From the NCBI GenBank assembly GCA_017557635.1, contig JAFYYH010000016.1, positions 62,001-126,000 on the forward strand: DNA of 64,000 nucleotides. Direction: 5' to 3'. The DNA comes from Bacteroidaceae bacterium. GTDB lineage: Bacteria > Bacteroidota > Bacteroidia > Bacteroidales > Bacteroidaceae. Made by a program: the position numbers and the translations under genes. The notes under the pieces were generated by a model that saw nothing but the letters and a program-made list of their open reading frames with translations, had not been told where the DNA came from and searched no databases. This document shows positions 50,339 through 56,458 of this stretch, in pieces. Numbering within the stretch: position 1 is the first letter of the stretch; each line of letters begins with the position of its first letter.

Positions 50339-50364
50339 AAAAGGAGCCAAGCGGCTCCTTTTTT
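50339..50364. terminator. Terminator between spt and tRNA-Pro
   Basis: A 10-bp stem (AAAAGGAGCC / GGCTCCTTTT) with an AAGC loop and a T run. It also has an A run on the 5' side, so it can end the tRNA transcript coming the other way (the tRNA 3' end is at 50367). Confidence 0.88.
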
Positions 50365-50366
50365 CG

Positions 50367-50441
50367 TCGGGATGAAAGGATTCGAACCTTCGACCACCTG
50401 GTCCCAAACCAGGCATTCTAACCGGACTGAACTACATCCCG
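50367..50441 (-). tRNA. trnP: tRNA-Pro (anticodon UGG)
   Basis: Minus-strand cloverleaf: 7-bp acceptor stem CGGGATG / CATCCCG, anticodon stem CCTGG / CCAGG around TTTGGGA with anticodon TGG (reads proline codons), and a TTCGAATC T-loop. Discriminator base A; CCA is not encoded. A -7 box (TATCTTTG, 50469-50476) ends 27 nt upstream. No integrated element flanks it. Confidence 0.95.
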
Positions 50442-50476: not shown

Positions 50477-50519
50477 ATGCATTTTTAATAAAAAAGGTTG
50501 GGGGGTAATAAAAAAGCAG

Positions 50520-50527
50520 TAACTTTG
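50520..50527 (+). promoter_or_regulatory. -7 box (TAACTTTG) for the polyamine operon leader
   Basis: TAACTTTG followed by CGG. It lies 321 nt before the next ATG (50849), whereas most boxes in the window end 7-30 nt before theirs; the excess is filled by a structured leader. Confidence 0.65.
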
Positions 50528-50532
50528 CGGTC

Positions 50533-50784
50533 AGGAAAGCAGAATGGATTGAATCAGAGTTTTCCTATTATTGAGTTGTGCGCATAACGCACATTGTGTA
50601 CGGAAACGTACCCCTTTTTTAAAGTTGGTTACTTTATAACCGCCCGACTTGGAAAACGGTCAATAAGAAGAGTAGTAAAAGTATTTGTTTACTATATAGA
50701 CTCTGATTTGAAAGTACAAAGGCCTTACTGCCCGCGTACCGAAGACGTAAACAAGAGAGGTTTTATTGTTTATGTCTTTTTTTT
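50533..50784 (+). ncRNA. Structured leader RNA with terminator: candidate riboswitch or attenuator of the polyamine operon (or a separate sRNA)
   Basis: Pairings read by eye: AATCAGAGT (50552-50560) with ACTCTGATT (50700-50708) closes a multibranched domain; inside, TTATTGA (50568-50574) pairs with TCAATAA (50660-50666). Hairpins GTGCG-CATAA-CGCAC, GTACG-GAAA-CGTAC and GGTTA-CTTTA-TAACC lie within. A further hairpin pairs TAGTAAA (50673-50679) with TTTACTA (50688-50694). The terminator at 50743-50784 follows. TTGTTTAC (50685-50692) can instead pair with GTAAACAA (50747-50754), the terminator's 5' arm, giving an antiterminator that excludes the 50673-50694 hairpin. I do not recognise a known RNA family; 6S RNA or another stand-alone RNA remains possible. 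Confidence 0.6.
50743..50784 (+). terminator. Intrinsic terminator in the polyamine operon leader
   Basis: A 12-bp stem AGACGTAAACAA / TTGTTTATGTCT (one G-T pair), 11-nt loop, then eight T. It lies 65 nt before the arginine decarboxylase ATG, so readthrough is needed to express the operon from the 50520 promoter. I see no second -7 box between the terminator and the ATG. Confidence 0.85.
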
Positions 50785-50848
50785 ATCCCCTCAGATGAGG
50801 GATGGAAAAAAGGCTGGATGGTTGAACTTTTAAAACGTTTTTGAGTAG

Positions 50849-52306
50849 ATGGATCAGCGAAAAGCTCCCGTTTATGAGGCTCTGCAGGAGTTCCGCAGGA
50901 ACAGAGTGGTACCGTTCGATGTACCCGGTCACAAAAGAGGTAGGGGCAACCCCGAACTCGTTTCGCTGCTGGGAAAGCAGTGCGTTGAGTTGGACGTAAA
51001 CTCAATGAAACCCCTGGATAACCTCTGTCATCCCATTTCCGTAATCAAAGAGGCCGAAGAACTGGCTGCCGAGGCATTCGGTGCCGCACACGCATTCCTG
51101 ATGGTGGGTGGTACGACATCGGCCGTACAGACTATGGTGCTTACCGCCTGCAAGAGCGGCGAGAAGATCATCCTGCCGCGTAACGTGCACCGCAGCGTCA
51201 TCAATGCGCTGGTTGTGAACGGCGCAACTCCCATTTACGTAAATCCTGATACTGACAGCCGTCTGGGTATAGCCCTGGGCATGAAGATATCACAGGTGGA
51301 GCGCGCCATCGAGGAGAATCCCGAGGCAAAGGCCATCCTGGTGAACAACCCCACATACTACGGAATCTGCTCCAACCTCAAGAAGATTGTGGAGCTGGCT
51401 CACGAGCACGGAATGATGGTGCTGGTGGACGAGGCTCACGGAACCCACTTCTATTTTGGTGAGGACATGCCTCTTACCGCTATGGCTGCCGGGGCCGATA
51501 TGTCATCGGTCTCAATGCATAAGTCGGGCGGAAGCCTTACGCAGAGCTCGTTCCTGCTTACCGGTCCCGATGTGAGCGCCGGTTATGTGCGTCAGGTGAT
51601 AAACCTCACTCAGACCACCAGCGCATCGTATCTGCTGATTTCAAGTCTTGACATATCACGCCGTAACCTGGCCCTGCGCGGCAAGGAGCTCTTCAGGGAG
51701 GTTATGCGCATTGCCAATTACGCCCGCACCGAGATAAACAAGATAGGCGGCTACTACGCTTACGGCAAGGAGCTGATAAACGGTGACAGCGTATTTGATT
51801 TTGACCCCACCAAACTGACAGTCTACACTTTGGATATCGGCCTTGCAGGCATTGAGGTTTATGACCTGCTGCGTGACGAGTATGACATCCAATTGGAACT
51901 TGGTGATATGGGTAACGTGCTGGCATACATATCGATAGGTGACCGTATGCGTGAGGTTGAGCGTCTGGTGAGCGCGCTGGTTGATGTCAAGCGCCGTTAC
52001 AGCAAGGACCGTTCAGGTCTGTTCGATCATGAGTATATCAATCCGTCTGTGGTCATGACTCCGCAGGAGGCTTTCTACGCTCCCAAGGAGGAGATGATTC
52101 CCATCCGTGAGACCAACGGACGTATATGTACGGAGTTCGTGATGTGTTATCCTCCCGGAATTCCTATCCTGGCCCCGGGTGAGCGCATCACGCAGGAAAT
52201 CATTGACTATATCCTCTACGCAAAGGACAAGGGATGTCAGCTGACAGGTCCCGAGGATGAGAGGGTAGAGCGTCTGAATGTGATTAAGGAAAGTACAACA
52301 TATTGA
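50849..52306 (+). CDS. speA: Arginine decarboxylase, aspartate aminotransferase fold (Orn/Lys/Arg decarboxylase family)
   Basis: A 485-residue PLP enzyme like Bacillus SpeA: PGHKRG near residue 26, GGTTSAVQ (87-94), the PLP-phosphate/ring Asp in DEAHGTH (194) and PLP Lys225 (SMHKSGG), with the C-terminal family domain from about residue 400 (CYPPGIPILAPGE). Assignment to arginine rather than lysine or ornithine rests on the operon, which holds a ureohydrolase but no other agmatine source. It would make agmatine. It is the first gene of a tight five-gene operon (gaps 12, 3, 1 and 8 nt) behind the structured leader. Confidence 0.85.
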   Translation: MDQRKAPVYEALQEFRRNRVVPFDVPGHKRGRGNPELVSLLGKQCVELDVNSMKPLDNLCHPISVIKEAEELAAEAFGAAHAFLMVGGTTSAVQTMVLTACKSGEKIILPRNVHRSVINALVVNGATPIYVNPDTDSRLGIALGMKISQVERAIEENPEAKAILVNNPTYYGICSNLKKIVELAHEHGMMVLVDEAHGTHFYFGEDMPLTAMAAGADMSSVSMHKSGGSLTQSSFLLTGPDVSAGYVRQVINLTQTTSASYLLISSLDISRRNLALRGKELFREVMRIANYARTEINKIGGYYAYGKELINGDSVFDFDPTKLTVYTLDIGLAGIEVYDLLRDEYDIQLELGDMGNVLAYISIGDRMREVERLVSALVDVKRRYSKDRSGLFDHEYINPSVVMTPQEAFYAPKEEMIPIRETNGRICTEFVMCYPPGIPILAPGERITQEIIDYILYAKDKGCQLTGPEDERVERLNVIKESTTY

Positions 52307-52318
52307 TTCTGACTGCCT

Positions 52319-53182
52319 ATGGAATTCTGGTTTACTGAGTTGCATACTCCTAACGTAAAGTTCTCAGTCAAGGTTGATAAGCACCTCTATACCGCTGAGA
52401 ATGATCTGGGTCGTGTAGATATCTTTGAGTCACCCGAGTTTGGCCGATTCCTGGCCGTTGACGGATACATAATCTTCACACAGAGAGACGAATTCATCTA
52501 TGATGAGATGCTGTCACACATACCTATGGCTGTGAATCCTAATGCCGAGAAGGTCCTGGTATTCGGTTCCGGTGACGGAGGTGTGGTTCGTGAGCTGCTC
52601 AAATACAAATCCATCCAGCAGATTGACCTGATTGAGATAAACGAGGGCGTGGTTCAGGCTTGCCGTGAGTACTTCCCTGAAATGGCAGAGTCACTTGATG
52701 ATCCCCGCGTAACCATCTACACTGAGAATGCCCTGCGCTATATACGTCATATTGAGAATGAGTATGACCTGATCGTGGTTGACTCGGCCGGATTCTACGG
52801 TCCTGGCGAGAGTCTGCTAACCCGTGAGTTCTACGGCAGCTGCTACAAGGCACTCAAGGCCGATGGCATCATGGTGAACCAGCATCAGAGCCCCTTCTAC
52901 GAGGAGGATCGTCTGGAGACCCAGAAGGCTCACATGCGAATTGTGAACCGATTCCCGATAAGCCGCGTGTATCAGGCACATATCCCGACTTATCCTTCGG
53001 GTTACTGGCTCTTTGGCTTTGCATCAAAGAAGTACCGTCCGGTATTGGATCTGGATGCCGATGCCTGGAACAAGCTCGGAATAAAGACCAACTATTACAC
53101 AACAAATCTGCACAAAGGCTGCTTTGCACTGCCCGCATATGTGGAGCGCATGCTGGCCGATGTGGAGACCATAAAGGACTAA
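52319..53182 (+). CDS. speE: SpeE-like aminopropyltransferase family protein with altered active site
   Basis: A 287-residue member of the spermidine synthase family: LAVDGYIIFTQRDEFIYDEML (about 45-65), SAM-type motif FGSGDGGVVREL (82-93), IEINEGVV (105-112). The catalytic-loop motif usually reading DSSDPxGPAESL is here DSAGFYGPGESL (155-166): Asp155 is kept but the second acidic residue is Gly158. No AdoMet decarboxylase (SpeD), which would supply its normal co-substrate, is in the window, and the operon has a carboxyspermidine route instead. Its true reaction is therefore uncertain. Confidence 0.82.
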   Translation: MEFWFTELHTPNVKFSVKVDKHLYTAENDLGRVDIFESPEFGRFLAVDGYIIFTQRDEFIYDEMLSHIPMAVNPNAEKVLVFGSGDGGVVRELLKYKSIQQIDLIEINEGVVQACREYFPEMAESLDDPRVTIYTENALRYIRHIENEYDLIVVDSAGFYGPGESLLTREFYGSCYKALKADGIMVNQHQSPFYEEDRLETQKAHMRIVNRFPISRVYQAHIPTYPSGYWLFGFASKKYRPVLDLDADAWNKLGIKTNYYTTNLHKGCFALPAYVERMLADVETIKD

Positions 53183-53185
53183 GCG

Positions 53186-54040
53186 ATGTTGGAAAGAAAT
53201 GTAGAGACCTTTATAGGCTGTGATGCCTCATATGCCGATGCCCGCATAGTGCTGTTTGGCGCCCCGTTTGACTCCACAACGTCATTTCGTCCGGGCACAA
53301 GGTTTGCACCTCATGCAATCCGTAGCGAGTCATTCGGTCTGGAGACCTACAGCCCCTGGCAGGACCGTGACCTGGAGGACATCAGCGTATTTGACAGCGG
53401 TGACATTGAGCTTTGCATCGGTAGTGCAGAGAAGGCTCTTGATCAGATATCGGACCGTACAGCTACGATTCTTAAGGACGGTAAGATTCCTTTCATGATA
53501 GGAGGTGAGCATCTGGTAACTCTGGGCGCATTCCGTGAGGTTTTCAAGAAGTACCCAGATGTGCATATCATACATTTTGACGCTCATACAGACCTGCGTG
53601 ACGACTATCTGGATGTGAAACTCTCACATGCATGCGTTCTGCGTCGCTGCCATGATCTTGTGGGTGACGGCCGAATCCATCAGTTTGGAATCCGCTCAGG
53701 CGAGCGTGCCGAGTGGCAGTGGGCACGTGCCGGTCACACTGACCTGCATCCTTTCAACTTTGACGGACTTGCAGAGACTGTTGCCGGATTGGCAGGTAAG
53801 CCTGTATATTTCACCATCGACCTGGATGTTATGGATCCGTCAGTATTCCCCGGCACAGGTACTCCTGAGTACGGTGGCGTTACTTTCATGCAGCTGTATG
53901 AGGCACTCAAGAACGTCTGCTACGGCTGCAACATTGTGGGCCTTGATGTCAATGAACTCTGCCCGCCTTATGACCAGACCGGAGCCTCTACCGCTGCGGC
54001 CTGCAAGATTATCAGAGAATTACTATTAAGCATTAAATAA
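53186..54040 (+). CDS. speB: Agmatinase-family ureohydrolase
   Basis: A 284-residue ureohydrolase with the full binuclear manganese site: His109 (GGEH), Asp132, His134 and Asp136 (FDAHTD), Asp212 and Asp214 (IDLDVMDP). The end SVFPGTGTPEYGG fits agmatinases. It releases urea from agmatine to give putrescine, or from an aminopropylated agmatine to give spermidine if the operon uses the carboxyaminopropylagmatine route. It starts 3 nt after speE and ends 1 nt before the dehydrogenase. Confidence 0.9.
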   Translation: MLERNVETFIGCDASYADARIVLFGAPFDSTTSFRPGTRFAPHAIRSESFGLETYSPWQDRDLEDISVFDSGDIELCIGSAEKALDQISDRTATILKDGKIPFMIGGEHLVTLGAFREVFKKYPDVHIIHFDAHTDLRDDYLDVKLSHACVLRRCHDLVGDGRIHQFGIRSGERAEWQWARAGHTDLHPFNFDGLAETVAGLAGKPVYFTIDLDVMDPSVFPGTGTPEYGGVTFMQLYEALKNVCYGCNIVGLDVNELCPPYDQTGASTAAACKIIRELLLSIK

Positions 54041-54041
54041 A

Positions 54042-55307
54042 ATGGGAAAGGTATTGGTTATTGGCTGCGGTGGCGTAGCCCAAGTTGCGATACAGAAGTG
54101 CGCCCAGAACGACGCAGTTTTTGACGAGATTTGCATTGCAAGCCGTACGGTTAGCAAGTGTGACGACCTTAAGAAGAAGATTGAGGCCGAGGGTAAGAGC
54201 CGTTCCAAGATTACCACTGCTAAGGTGAACGCCGACAGCGTGGACGAACTGATTGCCCTCATCAAGAGCGTAAAGCCCGATGTCGTGCTCAACCTTGCTC
54301 TGCCGTATCAGGATCTGACCATCATGGATGCCTGCCTTGCATGCGGCGTACATTACGTTGACTCTGCCAACTACGAGCCCGAGGATACCGAGGATCCCAA
54401 GTGGCGCGCCATCTATGAGAAGCGCTGCAAGGAGCTGGGCTTTACCGCATATTTTGACTACTCATGGCAGTGGGCTTATCAGAAGAAGTACAAGGATGCA
54501 GGCATTACCGCTATCCTGGGCACCGGTTTTGACCCGGGTGTAACCAGCGTATTCTCAGCATATGCCCTCAAGCACTACTTTGACCAGATAGACACCATCG
54601 ATATCCTGGACTGCAACGGCGGTGACCACGGTTATCCCTTTGCTACCAACTTCAACCCCGAGATCAATCTGAGAGAGGTATCGGCCAACGGTTCATACTG
54701 GGAGAACGGCCACTGGGTTGAGACCAAGCCCATGGAGATAAAGCGCGAGTACAACTTTGAGCAAGTAGGCATGAAGGATATGTATCTGCTTCATCATGAG
54801 GAGATTGAGTCACTTGCCAAGAACATTCCGGGCGTTAAGCGCATCCGTTTCTTCATGACATTCGGCCAGAGCTATCTGACCCACATGAAGTGTCTTGAGA
54901 ACGTAGGTATGCTGCGCACCGATCCCGTTATGTTTGAGGGCAAGGAGATTGTTCCTATCCAGTTCCTCAAGGCTCTGCTGCCCGATCCCGCATCGCTGGG
55001 CCCGCGCACAGTAGGTAAGACAAACATCGGCTGCATCTATACCGGTATCAAGGACGGCAAGAAGCGTGCCATCAAGATTTACAACGTGTGCGACCATCAG
55101 GAGTGCTACAAGGAGGTGGGCTCACAGGCCATCTCTTACACCACCGGCGTTCCCGCAATGATCGGCACCATGATGGTTATGACCGGCCAGTGGAAGGGTG
55201 CCGGCGTATTCAACGTTGAGGAGTTTGATCCGGATCCCTACATGGAGGCCCTGAACAAGTGGGGTCTGCCTTGGGTTGTTGATGAGAACCCCGTAATGGT
55301 TGACTAA
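54042..55307 (+). CDS. Carboxynorspermidine/carboxyspermidine dehydrogenase (saccharopine dehydrogenase family)
   Basis: A 421-residue saccharopine-dehydrogenase-family enzyme: NAD(P) motif VIGCGGVAQVA (5-15), LNLALPYQDL, YVDSANYEPED and GTGFDPGVTSVF. This family reductively condenses aspartate semialdehyde with a diamine (putrescine or diaminopropane) or, in a more recently described route, agmatine. It occupies the position directly before the matching decarboxylase. Codon use and spacing match the rest of the operon. Confidence 0.9.
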   Translation: MGKVLVIGCGGVAQVAIQKCAQNDAVFDEICIASRTVSKCDDLKKKIEAEGKSRSKITTAKVNADSVDELIALIKSVKPDVVLNLALPYQDLTIMDACLACGVHYVDSANYEPEDTEDPKWRAIYEKRCKELGFTAYFDYSWQWAYQKKYKDAGITAILGTGFDPGVTSVFSAYALKHYFDQIDTIDILDCNGGDHGYPFATNFNPEINLREVSANGSYWENGHWVETKPMEIKREYNFEQVGMKDMYLLHHEEIESLAKNIPGVKRIRFFMTFGQSYLTHMKCLENVGMLRTDPVMFEGKEIVPIQFLKALLPDPASLGPRTVGKTNIGCIYTGIKDGKKRAIKIYNVCDHQECYKEVGSQAISYTTGVPAMIGTMMVMTGQWKGAGVFNVEEFDPDPYMEALNKWGLPWVVDENPVMVD

Positions 55308-55315
55308 ATAGGCCG

Positions 55316-56458
55316 ATGAAAGCGACTGAATTGCAGACTCCGTGCTACGTCATTGACCGTGACCGTCTTGAGGCCAACCTCAAGATTCTGAACGGGGTGA
55401 TGGAACGTACCGGTTGCCGCATTCTGCTGGCTCAGAAGGCGTTCAGTTGCTATGCCGTCTATCCTTTAATATCAAAATATCTCTGTGGAGCAACAGCAAG
55501 CGGCCTCTTTGAGGCCCGCTTGTGCCACGAGGAGATGCCAGGCCGCGAGAATCACGTTTTCTCTCCCGCATTCCGCGAGGAGGATTTCTCTGAAATTCTT
55601 AAAATCTGCGACCATATAGTTTTCAATTCCATCCGCCAGTTGGAACTGTTCGGGCCTCGCGCCAAACAGGCTGGACTGCAGGTTGGATTGAGAATAAACC
55701 CGCAGGTTTCAACACAACCCGCAGAGCACGCCATTTATGATCCCTGCGCTCCCGGCAGCAGGCTGGGGGTAACATTGGAGGAGTTCCGCAAGGCATCGGC
55801 CGAAACCATAGGTCTGCTGGACGGACTGCATTTCCATACTCTTTGCGAGCAGAACTCCGATGACCTGGAAACTACACTGAATGCCTTTGAGGAGCAGTTC
55901 CGTGAGTGGCTCACCAAGATGAAGTGGGTGAACTTTGGCGGCGGTCACCATATTACCCGCGAGGATTACGATATTCCGCGTCTGGAGCGTTGCATCGGCC
56001 GTATGAGTAAAGGCTATGGCCTTACCGTATATCTGGAGCCGGGTGAGGCAATAGCTCTCAATGCAGGTTATCTGCATACCAAGGTTCTTGAGGTGCAGCA
56101 TCATGAGGGTGCAATGGACATTGCCATTCTGGATACATCGGCCGCATGCCATATGCCCGATGTTCTTGAAATGCCGTACCGTCCGCCACTTCGTGACAGC
56201 GGCCAGCCTCAGGAGAAAGCACACACTTACCGTCTTGGCGGCCCGACCTGCTTATCGGGCGATATAATAGGGGACTATTCCTTTGACACCCCGTTAAAAG
56301 AAGGCCAGACCCTCATATTCGAGGATATGGCCATCTATTCCATGGTCAAGAACAACACCTTTAACGGTATGCCCTTGCCGTCAATCTATCTTAAACAGGG
56401 CTCAGACTACTCTCTGATCAAATCCTTCACCTACCAGGACTTCAAGTCCCGCCTTTAA
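55316..56458 (+). CDS. nspC: Carboxynorspermidine/carboxyspermidine decarboxylase
   Basis: A 380-residue PLP decarboxylase of the alanine-racemase fold: Lys41 in LLAQKAFSCY forms the Schiff base, NFGGGHHIT (about 202-210) and the YLEPGEA segment (about 238-244) bind PLP phosphate, and the conserved GGPTCLSGD (about 306-314) supplies the partner-subunit Cys and Asp. It yields spermidine (or norspermidine, or aminopropylagmatine). Last gene of the polyamine operon; its stop overlaps a convergent small membrane gene by 4 nt. Confidence 0.93.
   Translation: MKATELQTPCYVIDRDRLEANLKILNGVMERTGCRILLAQKAFSCYAVYPLISKYLCGATASGLFEARLCHEEMPGRENHVFSPAFREEDFSEILKICDHIVFNSIRQLELFGPRAKQAGLQVGLRINPQVSTQPAEHAIYDPCAPGSRLGVTLEEFRKASAETIGLLDGLHFHTLCEQNSDDLETTLNAFEEQFREWLTKMKWVNFGGGHHITREDYDIPRLERCIGRMSKGYGLTVYLEPGEAIALNAGYLHTKVLEVQHHEGAMDIAILDTSAACHMPDVLEMPYRPPLRDSGQPQEKAHTYRLGGPTCLSGDIIGDYSFDTPLKEGQTLIFEDMAIYSMVKNNTFNGMPLPSIYLKQGSDYSLIKSFTYQDFKSRL

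Follow-up and report, generated by a model that had tools for sequence, protein, structure and literature searches.

The window analyzed in this study, a stretch of 64,000 nucleotides, belongs to a 2.4-Mb genome (G000) that is assembled in 24 contigs and is closest, among named relatives, to uncultured Bacteroidaceae and Bacteroidales of rumen and gut. Gene order and protein models revealed on its plus strand a spermidine operon, speA-speE-speB-CASDH-nspC. It encodes a speA-type Orn/Lys/Arg decarboxylase of 485 aa (50849..52306), whose matches to decarboxylase models were all below the curated cut-offs, a spermidine synthase (speE, 52319..53182; model over cut-off), an agmatinase (speB, 53186..54040; TIGR01230 over cut-off), a carboxy(nor)spermidine synthase/dehydrogenase (CASDH, 54042..55307; NF043000 with 415.7 bits, below the cut-off of 800) and a carboxynorspermidine decarboxylase (nspC, 55316..56458; TIGR01047 over cut-off). 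At the head of the operon, directly 5' of speA (ATG at 50849), there is a leader of about 320 nt. The initial annotation of this DNA had placed a promoter 321 nt before speA, and a Bacteroidota-type promoter was indeed found on the plus strand (50498..50527), with TTG at 50498-50500, a 19-nt spacer and TAACTTTG at 50520-50527, the end of this box being 321 nt from the ATG. A generic scan for sigma-70 promoters came out negative, as expected for a box of the Bacteroidota type. Between an upstream ORF of 395 aa and the leader promoter, the minus strand carries a terminator-like hairpin (50339-50362) and a tRNA gene (50367-50441).

The predicted folding energy of the leader was -70.3 kcal/mol, compared with -54.5 kcal/mol in dinucleotide shuffles (sd 4.6, z -3.4), and it beat 200 of 200 shuffles. 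An intrinsic terminator on the plus strand (50741..50784) consists of a hairpin at 50741-50779 followed by a U-tract (-14.1 kcal/mol). The structured leader with a terminator described in the initial annotation was thus confirmed, together with the two features from which it had derived a switch, namely the 8-nt complementarity between TTGTTTAC (50685-50692) and GTAAACAA (50747-50754) in the terminator 5' arm, and a competing 7-bp hairpin at 50673-50694.

Sequence comparison identified within the leader a conserved core that is common to Clostridia (50568..50704, plus strand). It was described by model R1 (122 positions, 29 pairs, 29 sequences), to which the window, itself in the model, scored 96.5 bits; alignment A1 contained 29 of the carriers known at the time and alignment A3 contained 79 elements picked to cut duplicates. 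All its helices are on the plus strand. P6 (50568..50666) joins TTATTGA (50568-50574) with TCAATAA (50660-50666) and is paired in 95-99% of cells, with little covariation because its sequence is nearly invariant. P6 encloses P4 (50578..50592; GTGCG 50578-50582 with CGCAC 50588-50592), a region that differs between groups with the pairing kept, and P5 (50622..50651; AAGTT 50622-50626 with GACTT 50646-50650), which in turn encloses P5a (50627-50641; GGTTA 50627-50631 with TAACC 50637-50641); an extra hairpin, P4', is located at 50598-50611. The competing hairpin of the initial annotation corresponds to P7 (50673..50694; TAGTAAA with TTTACTA), whose sequence is among the most conserved of the element, with 93.8% of cells paired and changes on both sides in two of its seven pairs. 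Across 78 distinct sequences, 16 of the 29 core pairs had changed on both sides, and cells changed on both sides numbered 101 against 18.2 in shuffles, in a kind of test that related sequences inflate. Pairing was kept in 95.3% of core cells versus at most 43.6% in slid controls, a percentage biased toward the structure, since the alignment was fitted to it. RNAalifold on four close relatives gave changes on both sides in only one of 55 pairs, this set being uninformative. On these comparisons, the 5' leader possesses the conserved and covarying structure that is expected of a riboswitch.

Two further plus-strand helices were recognized around the core. P0 is a 5' hairpin (50533..50566) in which AGGAAAGC (50533-50540) pairs with GTTTTCCT (50559-50566), and the P1 5' strand lies for the greater part in its loop, P1 being the closing helix (50552..50708; AATCAGAGT 50552-50560 with ACTCTGATT 50700-50708). 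Given that the MAFFT alignment of whole Bacteroidales elements (A4) left the P1 strands out of register, native duplexes were compared with duplexes swapped between elements, in permutation tests that leave shared ancestry in. In 11 Bacteroidales, the P0 arms gave -6.91 kcal/mol for native versus -4.48 kcal/mol for swapped pairs and the P1 strands -18.68 versus -12.51 kcal/mol, each with 0 of 20000 permutations as good; for the P0 arms of eight diverse Bacteroidales elements, it was 2 of 20000. Among non-Bacteroidales, the 40 of 58 whose 3' tail matched the pattern were used, the score being that of the best duplex at any upstream position, so that some counted pairings are neither P1 nor P1b; the P1 strand gave 0 of 10000 permutations, and P1b (GCAAAUAUUU with AAAUAUUUGC), which is absent in the window, was moderately supported (24 of 10000). 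An automatic joint search for P0 and P1 in the 79 elements showed a modest excess (mean score 33.3 versus 29.1 in shuffled sequences), with 25 of the 79 beating all of 12 shuffles and other hairpins being chosen in several members. P0 and P1 overlap by 2 nt in the window. As both helices are supported and the P1 5' strand lies in the P0 loop, a pseudoknot is implied as the probable fold, in which P0 and P1 may form simultaneously.

The end of the TANNTTTG box was located 3-5 nt 5' of P0, the first helix, in all 22 Bacteroidales elements examined, with helix starts picked by hand. The RNA should therefore start at the element, and from the position of the box we infer a transcription start just 5' of P0. 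This spacing and the conservation of the core across two phyla argue that the leader is more than a chance fold, being a genuine conserved folded RNA.

Regarding its distribution, the best 80 of 508 speA loci, taken from genome contigs, were compared. A core match (E <= 0.1) was present in 53 of these 80, and likewise in the window. Many of the carriers were Clostridia, and the 27 loci lacking a match included many of the Prevotella type and six Clostridial ones branching early in the speA tree; it must be noted that one of these 27 had only 30 nt of upstream sequence (L049) and that two matches were cut by a contig end (L012, L072). Whole-genome searches with R1 were not guided by genes and, in the large ones, scored only about 10 first-look candidates per genome, so weak matches may be missed. 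They revealed one copy each in 41 of 291 genomes in a sample of the class Clostridia, and matches in two of 295 genomes of the order Bacteroidales (one being the window's own), in one of 277 genomes of the phylum (again the window's own) and in 18 of 37 genomes of the window's genus, one of which carried an additional, partial copy at the end of a different contig. Roseburia hominis (L091) is a cultured gut carrier. A DNA similarity search in plasmids found no match, and viral contigs did not match the exact core pattern.

The genes that follow the element belong to polyamine metabolism. After the 41 Clostridial elements, the first recognized gene on the same strand was speA in 13 cases, speD in 14, CASDH in one and potA in 13 (41 of 41), as recognized with eight reference proteins, all of them polyamine proteins, and with L095 and L111 counted from the initial gene scan. 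The gene alignments started 69-395 nt after the core, which leaves room for a short unrelated ORF in between. Including the loci reached from speA, polyamine genes follow at all 78 loci other than the window (speA 44, speD 20, potA 13, CASDH 1), many of the 44 speA loci having been found through speA itself. Since ABC ATPases resemble each other, the 13 potA products were scanned against NCBIfam; the best model was a spermidine/putrescine transporter ATPase in all 13, over the cut-off in nine and below it in L112, L122, L126 and L129, of which L112 and L122 were read from an internal ATG. The PotB beside potA in L127 was a best match below the cut-off, as was (below cut-off) the CASDH of L104, and the speD of L132 was over it.

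This gene set also bears on the nature of the signal. The available part of a previous report (PMC10853860) stresses that the binding of polyamines to RNA is non-selective, which is a difficulty here, and the leader might accordingly be a general sensor of cations (Mg2+ or ionic strength) rather than a selective polyamine riboswitch; we consider this improbable, given that a polyamine gene came first after 41 of 41 Clostridial elements found in the unguided search, although only polyamine proteins served as references. Attenuation by a leader peptide, in which a ribosome would sense arginine or charged tRNA, could make use of the short ORFs that exist in the leader. Nevertheless, window-type cores range from 113 to 214 nt (137, 138, 139 and 154 nt included) and thus do not change in triplets, the conserved parts are RNA pairs, and an arginine peptide would poorly suit the elements before speD and potA, so that such a mechanism is extremely improbable.

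The initial annotation, made without access to Rfam, had named 6S RNA as a known family that the leader might match. At gathering scores, the only Rfam match in the whole 64-kb window was the upstream tRNA gene, and at E <= 5 the matches in the leader region were all far below their cut-offs. The 6S RNA model (RF00013) found nothing in the leader or in the genome and this family was rejected, as were the T-box, with no covariance model match in the leader, and SAM-I, with no SAM-I family at E <= 5 in the leader, L077 or L127. No other credible Rfam family covered the core of L077 and L127 at E <= 5. The annotation had also been aware of no element of this form in Bacteroidales. This stands at the site itself, where Rfam has no match; in Clostridia, by contrast, there is a known relative, RF02440 (SpF59_sRNA, ldcC RNA), a family of 54 nt typed as an sRNA gene. 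The name ldcC motif is said to come, most likely, from Weinberg et al. 2017. Of 20 loci scanned, 11 had an RF02440 match, situated immediately 5' of the core. Over its cut-off it was found in 34 of the 291 Clostridia genomes, all of them among the 41 carriers of R1, the remaining seven core-bearing genomes having no such match; in 34 of 34 genomes it was on the same strand and ended 0-47 nt upstream of the core. Lactococcus lactis, used as a control, matched RF02440, and among the 295 genomes of the order Bacteroidales none did; neither did the window leader, even at E <= 5.

It follows from this arrangement that RF02440 is one arm of a larger leader RNA in Clostridia. It belongs to the same leader, found before the same genes, but its model includes neither the core nor P0/P1, nor does it extend to the P5 antiterminator or to the terminator, whereas the form in the window lacks the RF02440 arm, which in Bacteroidales is either lost or was never present. 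A locus filed as Lachnospiraceae (L031) has a Bacteroidales-like P0/P1 together with the RF02440 arm. No description of the core was found in the literature searched, and the source publication of the ldcC motif may show more than Rfam does.

A terminator-like hairpin was found 3' of the core in 74 of the 79 elements, some of these picks being doubtful. No terminator was detected within 330 nt in five of 21 Bacteroidales elements (L028, L032, L036, L042 and L045), and the expression platform is consequently not uniform. These five retain near speA the hairpin arm bearing ACAAGA, a motif present in 24 of 24 Bacteroidales elements examined, and they possibly use a different platform, either translational or Rho-dependent.

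The pairing of core segments with the 5' arm of their own terminator, as compared with the arm of another species, was analyzed in 53 Clostridial elements of the 74 with a terminator; the 16 Bacteroidales were omitted, and L114, L031, L132, L134 and L128 were excluded by hand for a doubtful terminator or core. Of 21 scan positions, numbered from the conserved UCAAU (-30 starting 30 nt before it), those at -30, -25 and -20 gave 0 of 2000 permutations as good, with native versus swapped energies of -9.35 versus -7.19 kcal/mol at -25 (z -8.6) and -9.98 versus -7.76 kcal/mol at -20 (z -8.8). Position -15 was borderline (64 of 2000) and the remaining ones ranged from 131 to 1925 of 2000. This places the covariation on the P5/P5b 3' strand. 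Hence, P5 when closed would free the terminator and when open would allow the antiterminator, and the pairing in Clostridia follows the logic of an end-product OFF switch. The mutually exclusive structures of the expression platform that are characteristic of riboswitches are in this way shown by comparison for the Clostridial relatives.

This covariation also argues for action in cis. The related RF02440 is classed in Rfam among sRNA genes and the terminated leader could be a stable product, which would suit a small RNA acting in trans or a 6S-like RNA. Nevertheless, we hold this to be very improbable, considering in addition the negative result with 6S RNA and the polyamine genes that follow at 78 of 78 loci, many of which were found through speA. 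From the comparisons made here, then, the leader emerges as a real and conserved cis-regulatory RNA, which may act in trans as well.

In the window, two candidate antiterminators can be drawn on the plus strand. The first is that of the initial annotation (50685..50754), joining TTGTTTAC with GTAAACAA and excluding both P7 and the terminator; the second (50648..50755) is at the position used in Clostridia and joins CTTG (50648-50651) with CAAG (50752-50755), only 4 bp. Enforcing them cost 16-22 kcal/mol (-54.1 and -48.1 versus -70.1 kcal/mol for the free fold, in a nested model without the pseudoknot), and therefore any switching in the window would be kinetic, taking place during transcription. 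That the exact switch of the initial annotation, P7 against UUGUUUAC/GUAAACAA, operates in the window's own leader is possible but doubtful. The pairing is a perfect 8 bp there, it is complete in 11 of the 13 window-type elements and its enforced fold is cheaper than the P5 alternative; on the other hand, it is weaker in L012 and L025, it is complete in none of the 11 other Bacteroidales elements, and the UUGUUUAC segment gave no signal in Clostridia (248 and 623 of 2000 permutations at offsets 15 and 20). These comparisons lend it no support as a general mechanism. The attenuator logic claimed initially is retained in the form of a cis-acting attenuator or riboswitch candidate, with two exclusive structures backed by covariation in the 53 Clostridial elements, where the P5 3' strand and not the UUGUUUAC segment is involved.

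Considering all the above, the leader is likely a polyamine-responsive transcription attenuator, and probably a riboswitch. RNA polymerase would start just before P0 and would make a domain of about 180 nt, with P0 first and P1 closing on its loop, then P6 around P4 and P5/P5a, and finally P7. When the end-product polyamine is high, the domain would fold with P5 and P1 closed, the terminator at 50741-50779 would form and speA-speE-speB-CASDH-nspC would be off. At low levels, one of the domain's strands would pair with the terminator 5' arm and transcription would continue; this strand is the P5/P5b 3' strand in Clostridia, and in the window it would be UUGUUUAC (50685-50692) or else the P5 strand, which is shorter there. 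An attenuator that shuts off the operon when polyamines are plentiful is very probable.

The presence of both synthesis and import genes under one RNA points to an end-product polyamine as the signal. Spermidine, to which the speD and CASDH routes both lead, would for this reason fit best, and we infer that it is the likeliest ligand, with putrescine next. Of the ligands put forward in the initial annotation (arginine, agmatine or a polyamine), the genes speA, speD, CASDH and potAB favor an end-product polyamine and disfavor arginine. The sensor could also be a polyamine-responsive RNA-binding protein acting on the same RNA, since the covariation and the switching pairs concern structure and leave the identity of the sensor aside, and the available text of PMC2965389 mentions protein factors as another option for premature terminators of such a kind. 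We judge a protein sensor unlikely, though the points against it (a large RNA with invariant stretches, common to two phyla together with the operon) weigh little. Direct binding of the polyamine by the leader is the reading that we favor.

The literature searched contained one bacterial class of polyamine riboswitch, a rare one that originated from SAM-I (Salvail et al., 2023; PMC10853860). According to the available part of that report, it is a SAM-I variant with a four-stem architecture that acts as an OFF switch for spermidine, and its authors considered that further polyamine riboswitch classes surely are still to be found. It resembles the leader described here in its location before polyamine genes, its terminator and antiterminator, and its spermidine-OFF response, demonstrated there and proposed here; it differs in having the SAM-I fold, to which the window leader has no match. 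Other candidate cis elements tied to polyamine genes are set apart by their descriptions, as far as the accessible passages give them: the odc1 motif, an alphaproteobacterial hairpin with a uORF that acts on translation, and the potE motif, which is rated a weak candidate and is separated from its gene by some 200 nt (both PMC8632094); and the speF motif, likewise a structured leader before a polyamine decarboxylase gene, which is alphaproteobacterial, precedes an ornithine decarboxylase gene and had no ligand found (PMC11477304). The speF motif was not among the Rfam matches of the leader at E <= 5. The attenuator-like leader before potABCD in Pasteurellaceae (ABC-leader; PMC2965389), compared by its description in the available excerpts, is reported from two Gammaproteobacteria. 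The portions available of PMC6429828 and PMC11109978 contained no mention of ldcC, speA, decarboxylase or polyamine, and the passages of PMC10043782 did not mention such an element.

On balance, we lean slightly towards the view that this RNA represents a second, unrelated natural class of polyamine riboswitch: a large pseudoknotted RNA that would shut off spermidine/putrescine synthesis at the speA, speD and CASDH operons as well as import at potAB, in roughly one seventh of Clostridia genomes, and that would have moved with the operon into gut Bacteroidales, discarding there the sole arm catalogued in Rfam. If so, a single RNA would govern how much polyamine gut bacteria make and take up. 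The gene set, the covarying expression platform and the cultured gut members make the question of a polyamine riboswitch directly testable in this sparsely described RNA family. The 54-nt "sRNA" of Rfam, the only arm included in that database, would become one arm of a large leader, and the family deserves redefinition.

With respect to its origin, a midpoint-rooted tree of 59 speA proteins placed those of Bacteroidales, and a few filed as Bacillota, nested inside the Clostridial ones, and the presence of the element followed this tree with four changes versus 19.6 in shuffles. Within the window's genus, the element was present wherever a full-length speA reached at least 94% identity (16 of 16 genomes) and absent in three genomes with 86-87% identity (G802, G189 and G070). 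It was also present in a genome whose speA is split over two contigs (G815) and in one with no speA match (G799), and it was not found in two with a partial speA (G791 and G792). The simplest account of these data would be a joint arrival of operon and RNA from Clostridia, with loss of the RNA in Prevotella-type lineages.

Some members depart from the common architecture. A window-type core of 113 nt (L023:2742-2854; R1 67.5 bits) has neither the 5' strand of P5 nor hairpin P5a, and core length and R1 score were the same in G809; according to the model, this natural deletion should disable the proposed switch. Another window-type element (L021:2642-2855) has a long insert between P4 and P5, with a core of 214 nt versus 137 nt. 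In several elements before potA (L121-L124, L127-L129 and L131) the core is kept and the 3' end is altered or shortened, with GAGTACGCG or a similar sequence replacing P7. In addition, the MAG contigs of the close relatives L002, L006, L010, L011, L012, L014 and L018 begin or end in or beside the leader, and G104 has two leader versions on two contig ends, which suggests strain variation or repeats.
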